This document shows, piece by piece, positions 24,682-51,744 of a stretch of DNA of 64,000 nucleotides (positions within the stretch are counted from its first letter, which is position 1; every line of letters starts with the position of its first letter). Origin of the DNA: a virus; the IMG/VR virus record IMGVR_UViG_3300031857_000005, positions 186,001 through 250,000 of that record; one strand, 5' to 3'. A program made the translations under genes and the position numbers. The notes beneath the pieces were generated by a model. That model was not told the DNA's origin and did not search any database. It saw only the letters and a program-made list of their open reading frames with translations.

Positions 24682-27600
24682 ATGGCAACTAACAGTAAAG
24701 TATTTGTATCACCAGGTGTCTATACTTCAGAAGTTGATTTGAGTTTCGTTGCTCAAAGTGTGGGTGTTACCACATTGGGTATTGCGGGAGAGACTTTAAA
24801 AGGACCTGCATTCGAACCGATATTCATTAGAAACTTCGATGAATTCACGACATACTTCGGTGGTACTTCTCCTGAAAAATTTGTAAATACTCAAATTCCT
24901 AAATATGAAGCAGCATACATCGCAAAGGCGTATTTACAACAATCAAATCAATTATTTGTAACAAGAATCCTTGGATTATCGGGTTATGATGCGGGACCAT
25001 CTTGGTCAGTAGTTACAGTTGCAAATGTTGATCCAACGACTGTTGGGTTTGATTGTGCAAGTGGTGTAACCGTTGATTGTGTTTTTGAATGTACTTCAGC
25101 TAATACTATTGATTTTACGGTACCTTTTAGTGGATGTAACAGTACTGACGGGACAGTTAACTTTTTAAGTGATTTTCCTACAGTAATACAAAGTATGTTA
25201 ACAGAATCATACCAACAATTTGACGGAGGAACCTCATCAATAGATGCTGATATTACAAGTACAATTTTTAGTATTATCTCTTTAGATGATCCAACTACAG
25301 GACAGACAGTAATTGATTATTTTGGTTCTATTGATCCTGATGATTATTCAGGATTTACTAATCCTACTTTTTCTGCGGGAACTCAAAACAATAGATTTGA
25401 TGTACCTTCAGTTGATTTAGCTCAAACTGATTTAACATCACCATTAAATGATTCTTGGTATTACGCTTTATTTGATAATACAGGTAATGGTAATTACACA
25501 GGATTCTCATTTTACTCATATGTAACAGGAGTTACTGCAACTACAACAACAAGTAATTGTGCATCATTCTACGACTATTCAATTAGTGGAACATCCGCAA
25601 GTATAAACTATAATACTAATGTTATTAGTGTTTGTTTACCATCAGGGTTTACAGGTAATTTATCGGCATTAACTCCGACATTCAGTGCGTGTACAACAGG
25701 GGTTAGTGTTAATAGTGTTACACAGGTAAGTAATTCCACAGTGGTAAACTTCTCAGCAGGTACTGTGGAATATGTGTTAACATCGGGAGATGGATCAGTT
25801 ACAACAACTTGGACTGTAAATGTTTATGAATACGATCCTTGTTTAACTTGTCCTGGTTCTAACGGTGGATCACAAAATGTTGGTGAATTTACAACTTGTT
25901 ATTCAGGTAATGTCGTTGGTAAAATTTATCTTTACACAGGTAATTCATTCACTGATTACGATGATTTAGTCGTAACAACATTAAGATCAAGAGGTGTATC
26001 TAATTATACTGATGGAAATAACCCAACTTGGGAAGTGACAGGAATTACTGACGTAACTCTTGATATGACAGGACCTTATTCAGGGGTTTCTAAAAATCCT
26101 TATTTACCATTTGTGGTTAATGTTACCAACTACCAAGGAGATTCATTCTCGTTTGAAACATCAATGAGTATATCAGACGCTAAATATGTAACTAAAGTAT
26201 TTGGTACTAGTAATTTTGGTAAACCTAGAACAACAGTTCCATTAATGGTTGAGGAAAGATTCCAATCATTATTAAATTACGCATATAGAAAAGGTTATAT
26301 TAGAGGATTAAATTCTGAGTTAATTTCACTTGATTCCGCTCAAAGTCAAAGTTCTACATCTATTGGGTGGTACTTAGATAGATATCAATCACCAAGTTCC
26401 CCTTGGGTTGTATCCGAAGTAAGAGGTAGTAAAGTTTATAACTTATTCAAATTCTATACAATTGCTGACGGTAATGATGCAAACACAAGTGTAAAACTTT
26501 CAATTACAGATATTTCATTCGCTAATCAAACATTTACAGTGTTAGTTAGAGATTATTTTGATACAGATTCTGCACCTACAGTTCTTGAGAAATTCACTAA
26601 CTGTTCAATGGATCCAAGTCAAAATAGTTTTATTGCTAAAAAAATTGGTACATTAGATGGTGAATACGAATTGAACTCTAAATATGTTATGGTTGAAATG
26701 AATGAGGATGCTCCTATTGATTCACTACCTTGTGGATTTGAAGGGTTTAACTTCAGAGAGTACTCAGGTGCTAGATCTCCATTCCCAATCTTTAAAACAA
26801 AATACGATTTCCCTGGTGAAGTAATTTATAACCCACCATTTGGTTTACCAACAGGAGGAGATAACGCAACTACAACAGGTGGTGATAATGTTAGAAGAAC
26901 ATATTTGGGTATGTCTAATTTCTGGGGTTACGATCCTGACTTCTTTGAGTATGTTGGTAAAAGAAATCCAATTTCTACTTGCGACATTGAGGGAGGACAG
27001 TGGTCTTACAGAACAAGAGGATTCCACATGGATAAAAACGCAAGTGGTATTACTATCGGAAGTGCGTTCTCAACAAGTGGAACACCAAGATTCTATGTAG
27101 GTGATGCACCGTTTGCTTCAGAACCTATAAATGAAACAAGTCCTTACTACAGATTGTTCTCAAGAAAATTCACTTTGTTTGTACAAGGAGGGTTTGATGG
27201 ATGGGACATATATAGAGAAAGAAGAACAAATAGTGATAGATATGTTTTAGGTAGAATCGGATTCTTAAATGGTTCTTGTCCTACAGATAGATATCCTGAT
27301 GCTAAAGGATGGGGAGCGTTTAAACAAATTTCTATCGGTGACGGTACAAGAACTTGGGCAAATACTGACTACTACGCATATTTGTTGGGTATTAGAACAT
27401 TCTCTAACCCTGAAGCGGTAAACATTAATGTATTCGTAACTCCTGGTATTGATTATGTAAATAATTCAGACTTGGTTGGTGATGCGGTTGAGATGATTGA
27501 GTTTGAGAGAGCTGATTCATTGTATATTACAACAACACCTGACTACGATTTATTATTACCGACAACGACAGGAACTGATGGTTTAATCTATCCTACTGAA

Positions 27601-28254
27601 GCGGTTGATAATTTGGAGACTGCGGGAATTGACTCTAACTATACTTGTACTTACTATCCTTGGGTATTAACTCGTGATACTGTTAATAACACACAAATCT
27701 ATATCCCAGCAACAGCTGAGGTAACTAGAAACTTGGCGTTGACAGATAATATCGCATTCCCTTGGTTCGCCGCGGCGGGTTACACTCGTGGTATTGTTAA
27801 CTCAATCAAAGCTCGTAAGAAGTTGACTCAAGAAGATAGAGACACATTATATGTAGGTAGAATCAACCCAATCGCAACCTTCTCTGATGTTGGTACAGTA
27901 ATTTGGGGTAACAAAACTCTACAAGTTAGAGAGTCAGCACTTGACAGAATCAATGTTAGACGATTGTTACTACAAGCTCGTAAATTGATTTCAGCGGTTT
28001 CTGTGAGATTGTTGTTCGATCAAAACGATGAACAAGTTAGACAAGACTTCTTAAATGCGGTTAACCCTATCTTGGATTCAATCAGAAGAGACAGAGGTTT
28101 ATATGATTTCCGTGTGACAGTTTCAAGTGATACTGCAGACTTAGATAGAAATCAGTTAACAGGTAAGATTTATGTGAAACCTACTCGTTCACTTGAATTT
28201 ATTGATATCACATTCTACATTACCCCAACAGGAGCGTCGTTTGAGAATATCTAA
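24682..28254 (+). CDS. Tail sheath protein (gp18-like, enlarged)
   Basis: A 1190-residue contractile sheath protein. The N-terminus (FVSPGVYTSEVDLSFVAQ, then GIAGETLKGPAFEPIFI and FDEFTTYFGG) and C-terminal region (NIAFPWFAAAGYTRGIV, RINPIATF, GTVIWGNKTLQ, LLFDQNDEQVRQDFLNAV) are typical. T4 gp18 is 659 residues, so about 500 are extra, mostly between residues 110 and 480. Residues 290-385 of the insert resemble a DUF5018/Ig-like module (VISVCLPSGFTGNLSALTPT, then VEYVLTSGDGSVTTTWTVNV), probably exposed on the sheath surface. A TATTTATA element precedes it and a strong terminator follows. Confidence 0.93.
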   Translation: MATNSKVFVSPGVYTSEVDLSFVAQSVGVTTLGIAGETLKGPAFEPIFIRNFDEFTTYFGGTSPEKFVNTQIPKYEAAYIAKAYLQQSNQLFVTRILGLSGYDAGPSWSVVTVANVDPTTVGFDCASGVTVDCVFECTSANTIDFTVPFSGCNSTDGTVNFLSDFPTVIQSMLTESYQQFDGGTSSIDADITSTIFSIISLDDPTTGQTVIDYFGSIDPDDYSGFTNPTFSAGTQNNRFDVPSVDLAQTDLTSPLNDSWYYALFDNTGNGNYTGFSFYSYVTGVTATTTTSNCASFYDYSISGTSASINYNTNVISVCLPSGFTGNLSALTPTFSACTTGVSVNSVTQVSNSTVVNFSAGTVEYVLTSGDGSVTTTWTVNVYEYDPCLTCPGSNGGSQNVGEFTTCYSGNVVGKIYLYTGNSFTDYDDLVVTTLRSRGVSNYTDGNNPTWEVTGITDVTLDMTGPYSGVSKNPYLPFVVNVTNYQGDSFSFETSMSISDAKYVTKVFGTSNFGKPRTTVPLMVEERFQSLLNYAYRKGYIRGLNSELISLDSAQSQSSTSIGWYLDRYQSPSSPWVVSEVRGSKVYNLFKFYTIADGNDANTSVKLSITDISFANQTFTVLVRDYFDTDSAPTVLEKFTNCSMDPSQNSFIAKKIGTLDGEYELNSKYVMVEMNEDAPIDSLPCGFEGFNFREYSGARSPFPIFKTKYDFPGEVIYNPPFGLPTGGDNATTTGGDNVRRTYLGMSNFWGYDPDFFEYVGKRNPISTCDIEGGQWSYRTRGFHMDKNASGITIGSAFSTSGTPRFYVGDAPFASEPINETSPYYRLFSRKFTLFVQGGFDGWDIYRERRTNSDRYVLGRIGFLNGSCPTDRYPDAKGWGAFKQISIGDGTRTWANTDYYAYLLGIRTFSNPEAVNINVFVTPGIDYVNNSDLVGDAVEMIEFERADSLYITTTPDYDLLLPTTTGTDGLIYPTEAVDNLETAGIDSNYTCTYYPWVLTRDTVNNTQIYIPATAEVTRNLALTDNIAFPWFAAAGYTRGIVNSIKARKKLTQEDRDTLYVGRINPIATFSDVGTVIWGNKTLQVRESALDRINVRRLLLQARKLISAVSVRLLFDQNDEQVRQDFLNAVNPILDSIRRDRGLYDFRVTVSSDTADLDRNQLTGKIYVKPTRSLEFIDITFYITPTGASFENI

Positions 28255-28320: not shown

Positions 28321-29220
28321 ATGAATTATAGTGTTTTAACAAGACAAATCATCAAAGAGATGGTTAACGAAGTTGAGGAAAAAAAATACGGTGTGAAATA
28401 TTATGCATTTGACTGGGATGATAATCTTATGAAAATGCCAACTCAAATTATTTTAATGAGTGAAGGTGGTGATGAGGTTGGTATGTCAACTGAAGATTTT
28501 GCGGAATATAGAACTGACATTGGAAAAACTCCTTTTGAATATGACGGGGAGACTATTGTTGGTTTTGCTGAAAACCCGTTCAGATTTTTTGGAACTCAAG
28601 GGGATTCAAAGTTTATGAGGGATATTGAAAACGCCCCGTTAGTTAGAGGACCTTGGTCGGATTTTATTGAGGCAATTAATAACGGTTCAGTATTTTCAAT
28701 CATTACCGCAAGAGGACATCACCCAAATACACTTAAAAAAGGTGTGTTAAAATTAATTTTGATGGGTAGAGGTGGACTTGATAAAGAAAAACTTGTGGAG
28801 AGTCTTATTAGATACAGGGAGATTATGGGATTAAAACCAATTAAAGATGAAAATTGGTTAATCAGAGATTATCTTGATAGATGTAAATTTTACCCTGTGA
28901 GTTATGGTGCGGGTTCCGCGACTAATCCTGAAGAAGGTAAAGTTAAAGCAATGGAGGAATTTATTAATTATGTTAAAAGAATGTCAATTAGATTACAGAA
29001 AAAAGAATATCAATTCATAAATGATGTAAGTAATAACTTTGTTCCTAAAATGCCTATGGTAGGTTTTTCAGATGATGATATAAGAAATGTAGAAGTAATG
29101 AAAAAACATTTTGAAAAGAAACCAGATAATATATTAAGAACTTATCATACAAAAGATGATGAAAAAACTATGATGGAGCAACTAGTTAAAAGAACAATAT
29201 TGAAAATTAAATCAAAGTAA
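28321..29220 (+). CDS. HAD-superfamily hydrolase
   Basis: A 299-residue protein. HAD motif I is YAFDWDDNLMKMP (Asp-x-Asp at about 30-32), motif II is FSIITARGHHPN, and a motif IV-like GFSDDDIRNVEVMKKHF lies near residue 240. The family includes phosphatases, often acting on nucleotides, DNA ends or sugars. The first 20 residues (VLTRQIIKEMVNEVEEKK) form a helix ending in Val-Asn-Glu, similar to the N-termini of the genes at 22354 and 45357 and to capsid-targeting peptides. Placement between sheath and tube genes is unusual for an enzyme, and packaging into the virion is possible. Confidence 0.72.
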   Translation: MNYSVLTRQIIKEMVNEVEEKKYGVKYYAFDWDDNLMKMPTQIILMSEGGDEVGMSTEDFAEYRTDIGKTPFEYDGETIVGFAENPFRFFGTQGDSKFMRDIENAPLVRGPWSDFIEAINNGSVFSIITARGHHPNTLKKGVLKLILMGRGGLDKEKLVESLIRYREIMGLKPIKDENWLIRDYLDRCKFYPVSYGAGSATNPEEGKVKAMEEFINYVKRMSIRLQKKEYQFINDVSNNFVPKMPMVGFSDDDIRNVEVMKKHFEKKPDNILRTYHTKDDEKTMMEQLVKRTILKIKSK

Positions 29221-29285: not shown

Positions 29286-29774
29286 ATGGCTGATTTGTTA
29301 ATGAAAATGCCAGTTCCTTACGAACCGAAAAGACAGAACCGATTTATATTAAGATTCCCATCTTCATTGGGTATAAATGAGTGGTTTGTAGAGAGTGCGT
29401 CTAGACCATCTATCAAAATCGGTTCAACTGAGATACAGTTCTTAAATACTTCAACATTCGTTGCAGGTAGATTCAACTGGGATCCAATTACAGTTAAATT
29501 CCGTGACCCTATCGGACCATCTGCATCACAAGCATTAATGGAGTGGGTTCGTTTATGTGCGGAGTCTGTAACAGGTCGTATGGGTTATGCTGCTGGTTAC
29601 AAAAAGAATGTTGACATTGAGATGTTAGATCCAACAGGTGTTGTTGTTGAGAAGTGGATTTTGGAAGGTACATTTATGACTGATGTAAACTTTGGTTCAT
29701 TGTCTTATTCACAAGATGCGTTGGCAGATATTTCGGCAACACTTCGTATGGATCGTTGTATCCTTGTGTACTAA
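29286..29774 (+). CDS. Tail tube protein (gp19-like)
   Basis: A 162-residue tube subunit, close to T4 gp19 in length (163). Family features include the start PVPYEPKRQNRFILRFP, FVESASRPSIKIG, FNWDPITVKFRDP and the end LSYSQDALADISATLRMDRC. It polymerises inside the sheath to form the channel for DNA. It has its own TATTTATA element and a terminator directly downstream, consistent with high late expression. Confidence 0.93.
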   Translation: MADLLMKMPVPYEPKRQNRFILRFPSSLGINEWFVESASRPSIKIGSTEIQFLNTSTFVAGRFNWDPITVKFRDPIGPSASQALMEWVRLCAESVTGRMGYAAGYKKNVDIEMLDPTGVVVEKWILEGTFMTDVNFGSLSYSQDALADISATLRMDRCILVY

Positions 29775-29873: not shown

Positions 29874-30638
29874 ATGGAAAACAATGTTGCACAATATGGA
29901 CAAATGGATTTTAACTTACCACACGATGTGGTTAAATTACCATCAGGAGGAATTTTTTATAAATCTAAAAAGAAGAGTGTTAAAGTTGGTTATTTAACTG
30001 CGTCTGACGAAAACATTTTGTCAAATATTAATCCTAATAAATCAATTAGGGAAAGTATTATTCTACCTTTATTAAGAAATAAAATTTACGAACCTGATTT
30101 AAGACCTGATGAATTATTAGATGGTGATATTGAAGCGTTAATGATATTTTTAAGGAACACTTCATTTGGACCTGAATATAACATATCAATAAAGGATCCT
30201 GCAACAAACAAAGGATTTGAAACAACTATTTTATTAGATGAATTAAACATTAAAAAAACAGATGTTGATCCTGATGAAAATGGGTATGTTACAACAACAT
30301 TACCAAGAAGCGGTAATTCCGTTAAACTTAAATTTTTAAATGTTAGAGATTTAATTGAAATTGAAGAAATTATTGATCAATACCCTGCAGGTAGAATACC
30401 ACCGTCACAAACAATTAGATTGAATAAAATGATTGTTTCCATTGACGGAAATGAAGATAGAAGTCACATTTCTAAGTTTATTGAGTCAATGCCAATTATG
30501 GATTCAAAACATATTAAAAAGTTTGTTTTAGATAATGAACCAAGATTAGACTTAACAAAACAAGTAATAGCCCCGTCAGGAGAAAAGGTAATGGTTAACA
30601 TTGCGTTTGGGGTTGAATTTTTTCGGCCTTTTTTCTGA
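29874..30638 (+). CDS. Tail assembly/baseplate chaperone (gp26-like), frame 0 product
   Basis: A 254-residue protein of the T4_baseplate (gp26) type. The N-terminus has HDVVKLPSGGIFYKSKKKSV and VGYLTASDENILSN, matching the LPSkGxfY and ltxxdE layout. The rest is helical (DLIEIEEIIDQYPAG) with a C-terminal VNIAFGVEFFRPFF. Such proteins help assemble the baseplate hub and tape measure and sit just before the tape measure gene, as here. Near the stop, TTT TTT CGG at 30618-30626 allows a +1 slip into a 50-residue extension, giving a longer second product. See the entry for the extension. Confidence 0.8.
   Translation: MENNVAQYGQMDFNLPHDVVKLPSGGIFYKSKKKSVKVGYLTASDENILSNINPNKSIRESIILPLLRNKIYEPDLRPDELLDGDIEALMIFLRNTSFGPEYNISIKDPATNKGFETTILLDELNIKKTDVDPDENGYVTTTLPRSGNSVKLKFLNVRDLIEIEEIIDQYPAGRIPPSQTIRLNKMIVSIDGNEDRSHISKFIESMPIMDSKHIKKFVLDNEPRLDLTKQVIAPSGEKVMVNIAFGVEFFRPFF
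30621..30626 (+). promoter_or_regulatory. Probable +1 frameshift site (TTT-CGG)
   Basis: In frame 0 the codons are TTT (30621-30623) then CGG (30624-30626). A +1 slip re-pairs tRNA-Phe from UUU to UUC, and the next codon becomes GGC. The slow codon would be CGG, which appears uncommon in these AT-rich genes. A second run, CCT TTT TTC TGA (30627-30638), is an alternative site. The exact site is inferred. Confidence 0.6.
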
Positions 30639-30777
30639 TTACACAAAAATTTTACTTGACGAATATTATATCCTTGCAAAAATTCTGAGAACATCATATT
30701 CAGACTTTCTATCTATGCCAACATATATCCGAAGATATTTAATTAATAAAATTATTGAGGAACATAAAAGTGAATAA
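30625..30777 (+). CDS. +1-frame extension of tail chaperone (frameshift product C-terminus)
   Basis: An open frame of 50 codons in the +1 frame relative to the gp26-like gene, ending TAA at 30775-30777. It encodes GLFSDYTKILLDEYYILAKI and later SMPTYIRRYLINKIIEE. This is the helical, charged make-up of the small second domain of phage tail assembly chaperones (GT-type), where a 'MPTYxRRxLxxxxxEE' ending is common. The frame has no early ATG before the coding-like part, and the next ATG would leave only 20 residues. Translation by frameshift from the upstream gene is therefore the best explanation. It fills what would otherwise be an empty 167-base gap. Confidence 0.7.
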   Translation, partial: GLFSDYTKILLDEYYILAKILRTSYSDFLSMPTYIRRYLINKIIEEHKSE

Positions 30778-30805: not shown

Positions 30806-32638
30806 ATGTTAGCAACAAACGATTCTGGTGATGTAGATAAAGAAGAAACAGGTGCGGGTAGTTACGGGTTTACAGGTATTGATGTTGCCACACAATTATC
30901 TACTGCCGCCAAAGATTTATCAGGAATACCTGCTCAAATAGGTTCGTTAATTAGTACTAATTTAGGTTTAACTGCAATGTTTAGAGCAGCAACTGACTTA
31001 GATAAAAAGAGTGCGGATATCGTAAAAACATTAGGGACTGGATTCGAAAGAAGTATAGAACTTCAAAGAACTCTCACACTTGCAATCCCACAATTTGTTG
31101 GGATGGGTTTGAAGGCGGATGATGCATCTGCTCTTTATGAAAACCTAATTAAAAAATTCAATATTAATTTAAAACTAAGTGACAAACAATTAGTTGAGTT
31201 GGCGGCGACAAGTAAAGTTACTGGTGTTGCGGCTGATGAATTAGCACTTAATTTTAAAGATGTTGGTTTTAGTATTGAATCTGTTGGTGACAATATGTTG
31301 GAGGTTGCAAAAATTGCTAATCAAGCGGGGGTTACCGTCGCTAGTGTTGCGGGTGCGGTAAGTAAAAACCTTGAAAAACTTAATTTGTTTAATTTTGATA
31401 ATGGTGTTAAAGGACTTGCTAAAATGGCGGCGCAAGCATCAAGATTAGGTGTTGATATGGAAAAAATATTTGCCAAATCTGAAGACCTATTAAGTCCCGA
31501 AAAAGCAATTGATTTCGCAGCATCATTACAAAGATTAGGAGTCACCTCAAGTGAGTTATTAGATCCGTTAAGAGCAATGGATTTGGCTCAAAATGATCCT
31601 GTTGAGTTACAAAATCAAATTGTTAATTTAAGTAAAGATTTTGTTAGATTTAATGAACAAAATAATCAATTTGAAATTTTACCTGGTGCAAAAAGGAGAA
31701 TGAGGGAAGTTGCGACTGAATTAGGTATGTCTGCGGCTGAATTCTCAAAAATGGCAATCAACGCCGCATCATTTGATGAAAAATTAAAAAAGATTAAATT
31801 TAGTCCTGAAGTAAATGAAGACGATAGAGAATTGGTGGCGACAATGGCTCAGTTTAGTAAAAGTGGCGTTGCTCAGGTTAAAGTTAAAACATTTGATGAA
31901 ACAACAGGTAAATTAACAGGTGACGAAGAATTAGTTGATGTTAGTAAATTAACTGCGGAACAAATAGAATCACTTAAGGCGGAACAAGCATTACAAGGTA
32001 AAACCATGGAAGAAATTGCGGTTGATCAATTAAGTGAAATGTCAAAAACAAATGCAATACTTAATGAGAGATTGGCAGCGTATCAATATGGTATGGCACA
32101 AGGAGCTGCTCAACCTATTTATAGCGGTGCATTATCTAAAACAAGAGATCTTGTAAAAGAACTCCCAACCGACCCTATGGTTTATATTAAAACCATAGAA
32201 GATGTTGAAAAAAAAGTGGGAGAAATATTAAAAGATTTAGGTGTTGATTTTGGAGTTGTAATTGAAGAATTTGGGAAGGCTAAAGATGTTGTATATAATT
32301 GGTTTAGTGATGCTGCAACAACTATTAAAGATATTTATAATTCTGTTATTGGTACAACAACTTCCTCCGCAACATCAACTGCAACACCATCGGCATCAAA
32401 TGTGGTATCATCAACTGCAACAACAACAGTAGGTGGAGGAGGTACTGAAACCGCCTCAACCAATACACAACCAACAAATATGAACATAACCCACACATTT
32501 AATTTTTCAAATATGCCAAGTTATGTAACATCAACTGAGGTTGAACGAATATTAAAAGAATATACTCAAAATTCTCAAAATGCTCTTGCAATGGTAATGG
32601 CGGCAGGAAAAATAAATGCCGGATTAACAACAACATAA
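30806..32638 (+). CDS. Tape measure protein candidate (gp29-like)
   Basis: A 610-residue, mostly helical, Ala-rich protein (QLSTAAKDLSGIPAQIGSLI, AQAGVT-type helices, EVATELGMSAAEFSKMAINA). It has a Ser/Thr/Ala-rich stretch at about 515-560 and a short C-terminal domain. Its position after the tail chaperone and before large baseplate genes is where the tape measure is expected. T4 gp29 is 590 residues, so the tail may be similar in length. It lacks obvious transmembrane helices apart from mildly hydrophobic Ala/Val helices (VTVASVAGAVSKNL). Assignment rests on composition, order and size. Confidence 0.72.
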   Translation: MLATNDSGDVDKEETGAGSYGFTGIDVATQLSTAAKDLSGIPAQIGSLISTNLGLTAMFRAATDLDKKSADIVKTLGTGFERSIELQRTLTLAIPQFVGMGLKADDASALYENLIKKFNINLKLSDKQLVELAATSKVTGVAADELALNFKDVGFSIESVGDNMLEVAKIANQAGVTVASVAGAVSKNLEKLNLFNFDNGVKGLAKMAAQASRLGVDMEKIFAKSEDLLSPEKAIDFAASLQRLGVTSSELLDPLRAMDLAQNDPVELQNQIVNLSKDFVRFNEQNNQFEILPGAKRRMREVATELGMSAAEFSKMAINAASFDEKLKKIKFSPEVNEDDRELVATMAQFSKSGVAQVKVKTFDETTGKLTGDEELVDVSKLTAEQIESLKAEQALQGKTMEEIAVDQLSEMSKTNAILNERLAAYQYGMAQGAAQPIYSGALSKTRDLVKELPTDPMVYIKTIEDVEKKVGEILKDLGVDFGVVIEEFGKAKDVVYNWFSDAATTIKDIYNSVIGTTTSSATSTATPSASNVVSSTATTTVGGGGTETASTNTQPTNMNITHTFNFSNMPSYVTSTEVERILKEYTQNSQNALAMVMAAGKINAGLTTT

Positions 32639-51012: not shown

Positions 51013-51744
51013 ATGGATATGGAAAAAATATTTATATATGGGATATATAACCCTGATGAACCTGAAATAATAAGATATGTCGGTAAAACTAAAAAAAATG
51101 TTAATAAAAGATTAAAAGAACACATTTATTTAGGTGAAAAAAAAGTTAAAAGACCGTTATATTTGTGGATAAATAAATTATTGAAAAAGAATAAAAAACC
51201 TGAAATAATAATAATTGAGGAAACAAATAATAAAGAATGGGCCAATAAAGAGATTTTTTGGATAAAAAAATATAAAAAAACTAATAATTTATTAAATTTA
51301 ACCGATGGTGGGGAATCAAATCTTAATTACATACCTAATGAAGAGACAAGAAAAAAAATTTCATTAAATAATATTGGCAAACATAGTTATTGGAAAAATA
51401 AAAAATTAAGTAAAGAACATAAAGATAATATCGGCAAATCTTTAGTTGGGAAAAAAAGAAGTGATAAAACTAAAAAAAATATAAGTGAGTCGTTAAAAGG
51501 AAGAAAACTTTCTGAAGAACATAAATTAAAATTAAGCGTTTTAAGTCCTAATAAGGGTAAACCGGCTAAAAATATTAAATCGGTTAATAAAATATGTTTA
51601 GAAACTGGTAATATTATTGAAACATATATGTCTTTAGAAATAGCAGCAAAAGAAAATAATATAAAAAATAAAGGTAACATTGTTATGGTCTGCCAAGGTA
51701 AAAGAAATAAATGTGGTGGATTTTTATGGAAATATGTAAATTAA
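51013..51744 (+). CDS. GIY-YIG homing endonuclease (Seg-like)
   Basis: A 243-residue freestanding homing endonuclease. The GIY-YIG catalytic part is IYGIYNPDEPEIIRYVGKTK with a following Arg-x-x-x-His and a Glu-containing ETNNKEWANKEIFWIKKY. NUMOD-like DNA-binding repeats follow (NEETRKKISLNNIGKHS, SKEHKDNIGKSLVGKKRSDK, SEEHKLKLSVLSPNKGKP). The C-terminal IENR-type domain (SVNKICLETGNIIETYMSLE, AAKENNIKNKGNIVMVCQGK) matches NUMOD1/IENR1. It is much richer in Lys, Asn and A/T than neighbours, a sign of transfer. It separates helicase from nrdB, and likely cuts that junction in related phages. Confidence 0.87.
   Translation: MDMEKIFIYGIYNPDEPEIIRYVGKTKKNVNKRLKEHIYLGEKKVKRPLYLWINKLLKKNKKPEIIIIEETNNKEWANKEIFWIKKYKKTNNLLNLTDGGESNLNYIPNEETRKKISLNNIGKHSYWKNKKLSKEHKDNIGKSLVGKKRSDKTKKNISESLKGRKLSEEHKLKLSVLSPNKGKPAKNIKSVNKICLETGNIIETYMSLEIAAKENNIKNKGNIVMVCQGKRNKCGGFLWKYVN

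Follow-up and report, generated by a model that had tools for sequence, protein, structure and literature searches.

The locus considered here raises the question of how a reading frame that overlaps the end of a phage tail gene, and is shifted by +1 relative to it, comes to be translated. The DNA analysed, called the window in the following, is a stretch of 64,000 nucleotides from an IMG/VR virus record of 304,365 bases. In it, a frame-0 ORF ends with ...GVEFFRPFF and the stop codon TGA at 30636–30638, just as given in the original prediction, and the +1 frame runs from a first codon GGC at 30625–30627 to the stop codon TAA at 30775–30777. That prediction proposed a programmed +1 frameshift in a tail assembly chaperone, and the proposal is supported by the conserved +1 ORF, the site, the rare codons and the PF12322/phrog_150 family of the gene. 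We consider it very likely that this one gene yields both a short protein (G, 254 aa) and a G-T fusion (300 aa) by a programmed +1 frameshift at UUU_UUU_CGG, the fusion presumably being the rarer product. The features needed for the discussion are the following:

24682..28254, + strand: tail sheath protein gene (PF17482, E 7e-9 at the C-terminus)
29286..29774, + strand: tail tube protein gene, upstream neighbour (phrog_4542 tail tube, E 3e-27)
29874..30638, + strand: frame-0 ORF, G protein, putative T4 gp26-like tail/hub assembly chaperone, 254 aa (PF12322, phrog_150)
30568..30615, + strand: conserved upstream RNA hairpin (covariation, folding z-scores)
30618..30626, + strand: candidate shift site UUU_UUU_CGG (invariant core, rare A-site codon)
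30625..30777, + strand: +1-frame ORF, T extension, 50 codons and stop, taken to form the C-terminal end of the G-T fusion (selection, conservation, AlphaFold2)
30806..32638, + strand: probable tape measure protein gene, downstream neighbour (from position)

The frame-0 ORF matches PF12322 (T4_baseplate) with an E-value of 5e-10 and 39.9 bits, which is above the curated cut-off of 24.5, and phrog_150 (baseplate hub) with 8e-14. It is the only PF12322 gene of the 304-kb genome; a second one, as T4 has, was sought across the whole genome and not found. The order of genes in the window is sheath (24682), tube (29286), the gp26-like gene (29874) and the next large ORF (30806). For this last ORF, neither the profile searches nor a BLAST comparison with the tape measure protein of Flavobacterium phage immuto gave a match. 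In immuto, Listeria phage LIS04 and Bacillus phage SP-15, however, the annotated order is tube, gp26-like gene, tape measure, with the annotated tape measure gene being the next large ORF after the gp26-like one, and the ORF at 30806..32638 is from its position probably the tape measure gene. As in a G/GT pair, the gp26-like gene is thus located between the tail tube and tape measure genes, with the latter assigned by position in the window.

Two observations on the neighbouring genes can be mentioned here. The sheath protein (24682–28254) has 1190 residues, of which the recognised sheath domains cover 911–1181 only, and domain matches assign no role to its very long N-terminal part. Between the sheath and the tube there is a gene for a 299-aa protein (28321–29220) without a Pfam or NCBIfam match, while in immuto (L174) the sheath directly adjoins the tube with no intervening gene.

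We turn now to the +1 frame itself. A total of 357 relatives were found in viral contigs, of which 80 were kept, and more were added by profile search. At all 105 unique readable sites of close relatives the +1 ORF is open, with 48–54 codons, and the same is true for one relative beyond these 105 (L162), the site of which is TTTTTTCGCCCG. The ORF is also present at each of the 120 sister-clade sites that could be located, and a T-domain profile, which includes the query phages' own T sequences, was found in the +1 frame in 122/122 unique relatives of Microcystis phage Mel-JY01, immuto and SP-15. In the +1 frame the mean pN/pS values are 0.28/0.58 (median dN/dS of 0.20 for close pairs), while in the other two frames they are 0.30/0.29 and 0.32/0.23, without such a synonymous excess. 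Since the excess is found in the ORF's own frame, the +1 ORF evolves as a translated sequence. Judged from these alignments, there is a conserved downstream ORF in a shifted frame that overlaps the end of the upstream gene, as in the G/GT arrangement, and its conservation is far beyond chance. The coding-like character of the 50 codons, noted from a single sequence in the original prediction, is therefore borne out by purifying selection, and the alignment of homologues that it suggested as a check shows the frame to be kept in all readable relatives. A single-base assembly error, named there as a way to refute the frameshift, is ruled out, as the same frame is found on many independent contigs.

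The slip site proposed earlier, TTT|CGG, was confirmed as TTT_TTT_CGG at 30618–30626. Among the 105 unique close relatives, TTTTTTCG[GCA]CC is invariant, the in-frame form being TTTTTTCG[GCA]CCTTT, and the core TTT_TTT_CG[GCA]_CC, that is TTT_TTT_CGV_CC, shows no variation. An in-frame UUU_CGN (TTT_CGG, TTT_CGC or TTT_CGA) is accordingly found at the overlap in 105/105, with the A-site codon being CGG or CGC in all but one, where it is CGA. In the whole genome, TTTTTTCGGCC occurs a single time. Counts over 291 ORFs (about 87,000 codons) are 17 for CGC and 19 for CGG, which makes them the two rarest sense codons of the phage, together 36 of 2885 arginine codons. Among the 24 tRNAs of the phage are Phe-GAA, Arg-ACG and Arg-UCU, but there is no Arg-CCG, and no reader of CGG is thus expected in this set. 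According to the established wobble rules, Arg-ICG decodes CGU, CGC and CGA, while CGG is outside its range. The tRNA for this codon may come from the host, and CGG in the A site is presumably slow. The rarity of CGG and CGC, together with the invariant TTT_TTT_CGV, supports the suggested slip from UUU to UUC before a slow CGG codon. It is important to point out that a rare A-site codon is not general, because the sister clades mostly have UGG (Trp) at this place rather than a rare arginine codon, which is a point against the proposed mechanism.

In terms of pairing, UUC is available to a P-site tRNA-Phe that leaves UUU, as is UUU when the slip takes place at the first Phe codon, and a +1 slip from either Phe codon gives EFFGL, while a −2 slip would give EFFFGL. 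The window does not have the classical −1 arrangement, in which an in-frame slippery heptamer (X_XXY_YYZ) comes with a −1-frame T; its T is in the +1 frame. As a side observation, the phage also encodes a tmRNA with the tag EKEQTLIIRG (tRNA/tmRNA loci L183:2951-14715 and L184:178-580).

Directly upstream of the site there is a conserved RNA hairpin with the following elements:

30568–30575 with 30608–30615, + strand: outer stem (CCCC 30571–30574 pairing with GGGG 30609–30612)
30576–30584, + strand: 9-nt bulge
30585–30593 with 30599–30607, + strand: inner stem
30594–30598, + strand: loop

The outer stem pairs AGCCCCG (30569–30575) with TGGGGTT (30608–30614), and the gap between the end of the helix and TTT_TTT is 2–5 nt. 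Both of its arms are strongly constrained. Namely, GGG is invariant (101/101) at the Gly codon five from the end of the unshifted reading, although it makes up 11% of the Gly codons of the genome, the Ala codon 18 from that end is GCC in 98/98, and the CCCC arm is invariant in 79/79. Over 79 distinct sequences, 89.9% of the cells are paired. Cells with both sides changed amount to 92, compared to 39.7 ± 4.8 in shuffles (0/500), which do not preserve relatedness, and to at most 45 when the partners are slid by 1–3 columns, a control that does preserve it; the inner stem is favoured over the slid controls, as it was proposed from single-sequence folds of the same sequences in which the pairs were then counted. 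The main covarying columns are 32:50 (AU 44, GC 19), 35:47 (AU 37, GC 22) and 38:44 (GC 29, AU 11, UA 9).

Folding energies point in the same direction. The 60 bases that precede the site reach a mean z of −2.4 against dinucleotide shuffles in 15 diverse relatives, whereas other windows of the gene are mostly near 0, the lowest one upstream being −1.5; the window's own hairpin sequence has a z of −2.09. A scan with the hairpin model gave one strong site in the genome and none in distant phages. With RNAalifold on the full alignment, the outer stem alone was reported and no covariation, and an Rfam search of the hairpin returned no family, the best match being a sub-threshold CRISPR repeat with an E-value of 0.26. 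Another option considered was a stem downstream of the site, but pseudoknot-free folding shows no excess stability there, with z of 0.48 for 0–60 and −0.26 for 30–90, and this stimulator was rejected. The sister clades have a 5-bp stem at the same distance from the site with some excess pairing, picked from many candidates, and it is no more than suggestive of a short upstream hairpin also in the Mel-JY01 and immuto groups. At the sister loci (L191–L351), such a hairpin, for which the evidence is weak, may end 5–6 nt upstream of the site, and it would be 100% paired in the immuto-like group. The site, the gene and the direction given in the original prediction have all gained support, but it missed both this hairpin and the relation to T4 gp26 and gp51 discussed below.

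The mechanism that we propose is as follows. The ribosome would stall with tRNA-Phe on UUU in the P site while CGG, hardly ever used by the phage and without an expected reader among its tRNAs, waits in the open A site. The hairpin, melted by the translation of its own sequence, would refold at the mRNA exit once the ribosome has passed it and pull on the mRNA, in a manner likened to the internal Shine–Dalgarno duplex of prfB. The tRNA-Phe would then slip from UUU to UUC, and reading would resume at GGC. We propose this role for the hairpin because refolding hairpins upstream of a starved A-site codon stimulate +1 shifting in E. coli extracts, with 70S ribosomes, and act like an internal Shine–Dalgarno duplex (PMC6321510), and the one in the window phage may be a stimulator of the same kind. 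The two products, G and GT, would assist tail assembly as chaperones of the tape measure and the tail tube, like gpG and gpGT of lambda.

The element most open to another interpretation is the stimulator. While the +1 shift would stand, the upstream GGGG could be an internal Shine–Dalgarno sequence as in prfB, with the hairpin having another role. The invariance of GGG at its Gly codon would fit with this, as would the computed pairing of −7.6 to −9.4 kcal mol−1, which is among the strongest 2–5% of random windows for an assumed anti-Shine–Dalgarno sequence, and the retention of the prfB shift, together with a perfect Shine–Dalgarno-like element, in Flavobacterium johnsoniae (PMC8710568). However, the other arm of the stem is nearly as fixed (CCCC and the GCC Ala codon), the inner stem covaries, and the pairing in prfB is stronger, −12.6 to −13.5 with the same assumption about the anti-Shine–Dalgarno sequence. 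Strong pairing about 3 nt before the P codon, as for a prfB-type stimulator, was not found, the GGGG ending 8 nt before the second UUU and 5 nt before the first. Furthermore, Shine–Dalgarno motifs precede 16 of the 291 phage genes (5.5%), below the 12.1% of random positions. Such a depletion is expected for Bacteroidota hosts. We regard the internal Shine–Dalgarno interpretation as unlikely, but as one to be kept in mind.

The other alternatives concern the origin of T itself. T could be a separate small protein, started inside G at the TTG at 30601 or at another start and translationally coupled to G. The original prediction saw no suitable start, which is not entirely accurate for the window, since this TTG is in the +1 frame and at least one such TTG is found just upstream of the site in every close relative, a point that speaks against the frameshift. 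The TTG is, however, a by-product of the conserved Phe-Gly(-Val) codons of G, and in 37 of the 120 sister loci the stretch from the last +1-frame stop to the site holds no ATG, GTG or TTG, which means that a start of its own cannot yield the complete T region there; the next such codon comes 8 to 44 codons into T, and is missing altogether from two loci. It would also leave the invariant TTT_TTT_CGV, the two rarest codons and the covarying hairpin unexplained, and gp51 of T4 appears to be a continuous G+T-like protein. We find a separate start highly improbable. A −2 slip, mentioned in the original prediction next to +1, would reach the same frame with one extra Phe, and the P-site tRNA-Phe could indeed re-pair two bases back in the T6 run; reaching the +1 frame by −2 is also a known event (PMC5009743). 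Yet at 30 sister loci the second codon is CTT or CTA, which is compatible with re-pairing for +1 and not with re-pairing for −2, and a stalled A-site codon with an upstream duplex is a known +1 setting (PMC6321510, PMC10885494). Of the two directions, +1 is thus the one supported, and −2, the product of which would be nearly the same, appears very improbable. Finally, the RNA polymerase could slip on the T6 run, such that the frame change lies in the mRNA, and a transcript lacking one U would encode the same product. Six bases is a short run for polymerase slippage, though, and the 30 sister loci have TTTCTTTGG, TTTCTATGG or TTTCTTTAC, in which the longest run is three. Since this scenario does not account for the rare codon either, we consider it extremely unlikely, and the programmed +1 frameshift by the ribosome is retained below.

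The family assignment connects the locus to T4. There, gp26 and gp51 match PF12322 with E-values of 9e-64 and 4e-52, respectively, and both match phrog_150, gp51 covering its C-terminal part, up to position 280 of 282. The two proteins have been listed as hub assembly chaperones (PMC3004832). In a single profile–profile comparison, the T extension aligns in register, with moderate support, with the C-terminal tail of gp51 (P 5e-5, probability 68%), while a sequence HMM did not separate the gp51 tails from decoys. These results suggest that T4 would make G and GT as the paralogous genes 26 and 51, and that the window group would make them from one +1-shifted gene. A G/GT reading of gp26 and gp51 was not found in the openly licensed literature. 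The AlphaFold2 model of the fusion has a pLDDT of 87 and a pTM of 0.82, with predicted T helices at 256–271, 275–280 and 283–297 (pLDDT about 80–94). Compared with a viral structure library, its named matches are mostly baseplate hub proteins, including that of SP-15, and a fold search of the PDB gave no match. A tail-chaperone function of the gene pair, of the G/GT type, would be consistent with these data.

It is instructive to compare the locus with known systems. With lambda gpG/gpGT it shares a short protein and a longer fusion, a frame-shifted T part and a location next to the tape measure gene within the tail operon, but in lambda the shift is −1, while here it would be +1 at a rare-codon site with an upstream hairpin; the window's G protein belongs to the gp26 family and is set beside gpG by gene arrangement. 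With T4 it shares the protein family, in which gp51 is the longer form and may carry a T-like tail, aligned in register, but T4 uses two separate genes without a frameshift where the window phage would use a single +1-shifted gene. Influenza A PA-X and the amalgaviruses also have UUU_CGN as a +1 site (PMC5052127), with the same core and the same re-pairing from UUU to UUC before a CGN codon. These are, however, eukaryotic RNA viruses with 80S ribosomes, and no stimulatory signal is evident for PA-X (PMC5009743), whereas the present case is a phage with an upstream hairpin. In prfB (RF2) the ribosome stalls on its A-site codon and slips forward, a duplex lying upstream of the P site, and CUU_UGG in part of the sister clade resembles its CUU_UGA, but prfB stalls at a stop codon and uses mRNA–rRNA pairing, while the window phage would stall at a rare arginine codon and the duplex is probably an mRNA hairpin. 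The statement in the original prediction that tail chaperones usually shift by −1 and that +1 is unusual is only partly right, as 350 of the 2718 positive slippery-site cases of one phage data set, that of PRFect, are forward (PMC10885494). The actinobacteriophages treated there have tail assembly chaperones with a forward shift, and are similar by function and direction, but no such hairpin is described in the passages considered (PMC10885494). In addition, the shift of HSTV-2 is very likely +1 (PMC5009743).

A gp26-like gene with a shifted T was also found in Mel-JY01, immuto, RM378, LR756508, SP-15, LIS04 and GXN1, and among the annotations examined none gives the gene as a fusion. Mel-JY01 has two overlapping ORFs and the site TTT_TTT_TGG_CCT, immuto has TTT_CTT_TGG_CCT, Rhodothermus phage RM378 has TTT_TTT_TGG and the uncultured LR756508 has TTT_CTA_TTC; SP-15, LIS04 and Streptococcus phage GXN1 (TTC_TTT_CGT) have the same arrangement. 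A T profile built from the window's own group ranks Mel-JY01 (E 1e-9), the −1-frame T of LR756511 (1e-8), LR756508 (1e-4) and immuto (6e-4) ahead of all decoys. The T extension of the gp26-like gene lies in the −1 frame in LR756511 (L177, around 2236) and in Agrobacterium phage Atu_ph07 (L176, around 2284), in the latter preceded by a classical heptamer, U_UUU_UUC. Members of the family thus differ in the direction of the shift, and a few jumbo phages would make T by a −1 shift.

Frameshifted tail chaperones, including +1 cases, are already known. A search of the openly licensed literature turned up neither a frameshift in the gp26/gp51 family nor a phage with a UUU_CGG site, and no covarying hairpin upstream of a site of this type either; these three elements are new as far as we have searched. 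We see roughly even chances for the broader picture, in which a large group of T4-type contractile phages, probably of Bacteroidota, has a new +1 signal, consisting of a covarying hairpin upstream of UUU_UUU_CGG and a stall codon that is avoided and absent from the phage tRNA set, such that tRNA supply could set the G:GT ratio, and in which the family makes the pair by +1, by −1 or from two paralogues (T4 26 and 51). If true, T4 genes 26 and 51, the roles of which in hub assembly are still unclear, would gain a testable function as G and GT tail chaperones. The hairpin would be a natural, conserved upstream element that may drive +1 shifting on bacterial ribosomes, the examples in the papers cited above being reporter constructs. 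Phage annotations would also be truncated or split at the gp26-like gene, as in immuto, Mel-JY01, SP-15 and LIS04, where the fused product is missing.

Elsewhere in the window, at 51013–51744 and just upstream of ribonucleotide reductase-like genes, there is a group I intron/homing-type endonuclease (TIGR01453, E 2e-15; NUMOD3).
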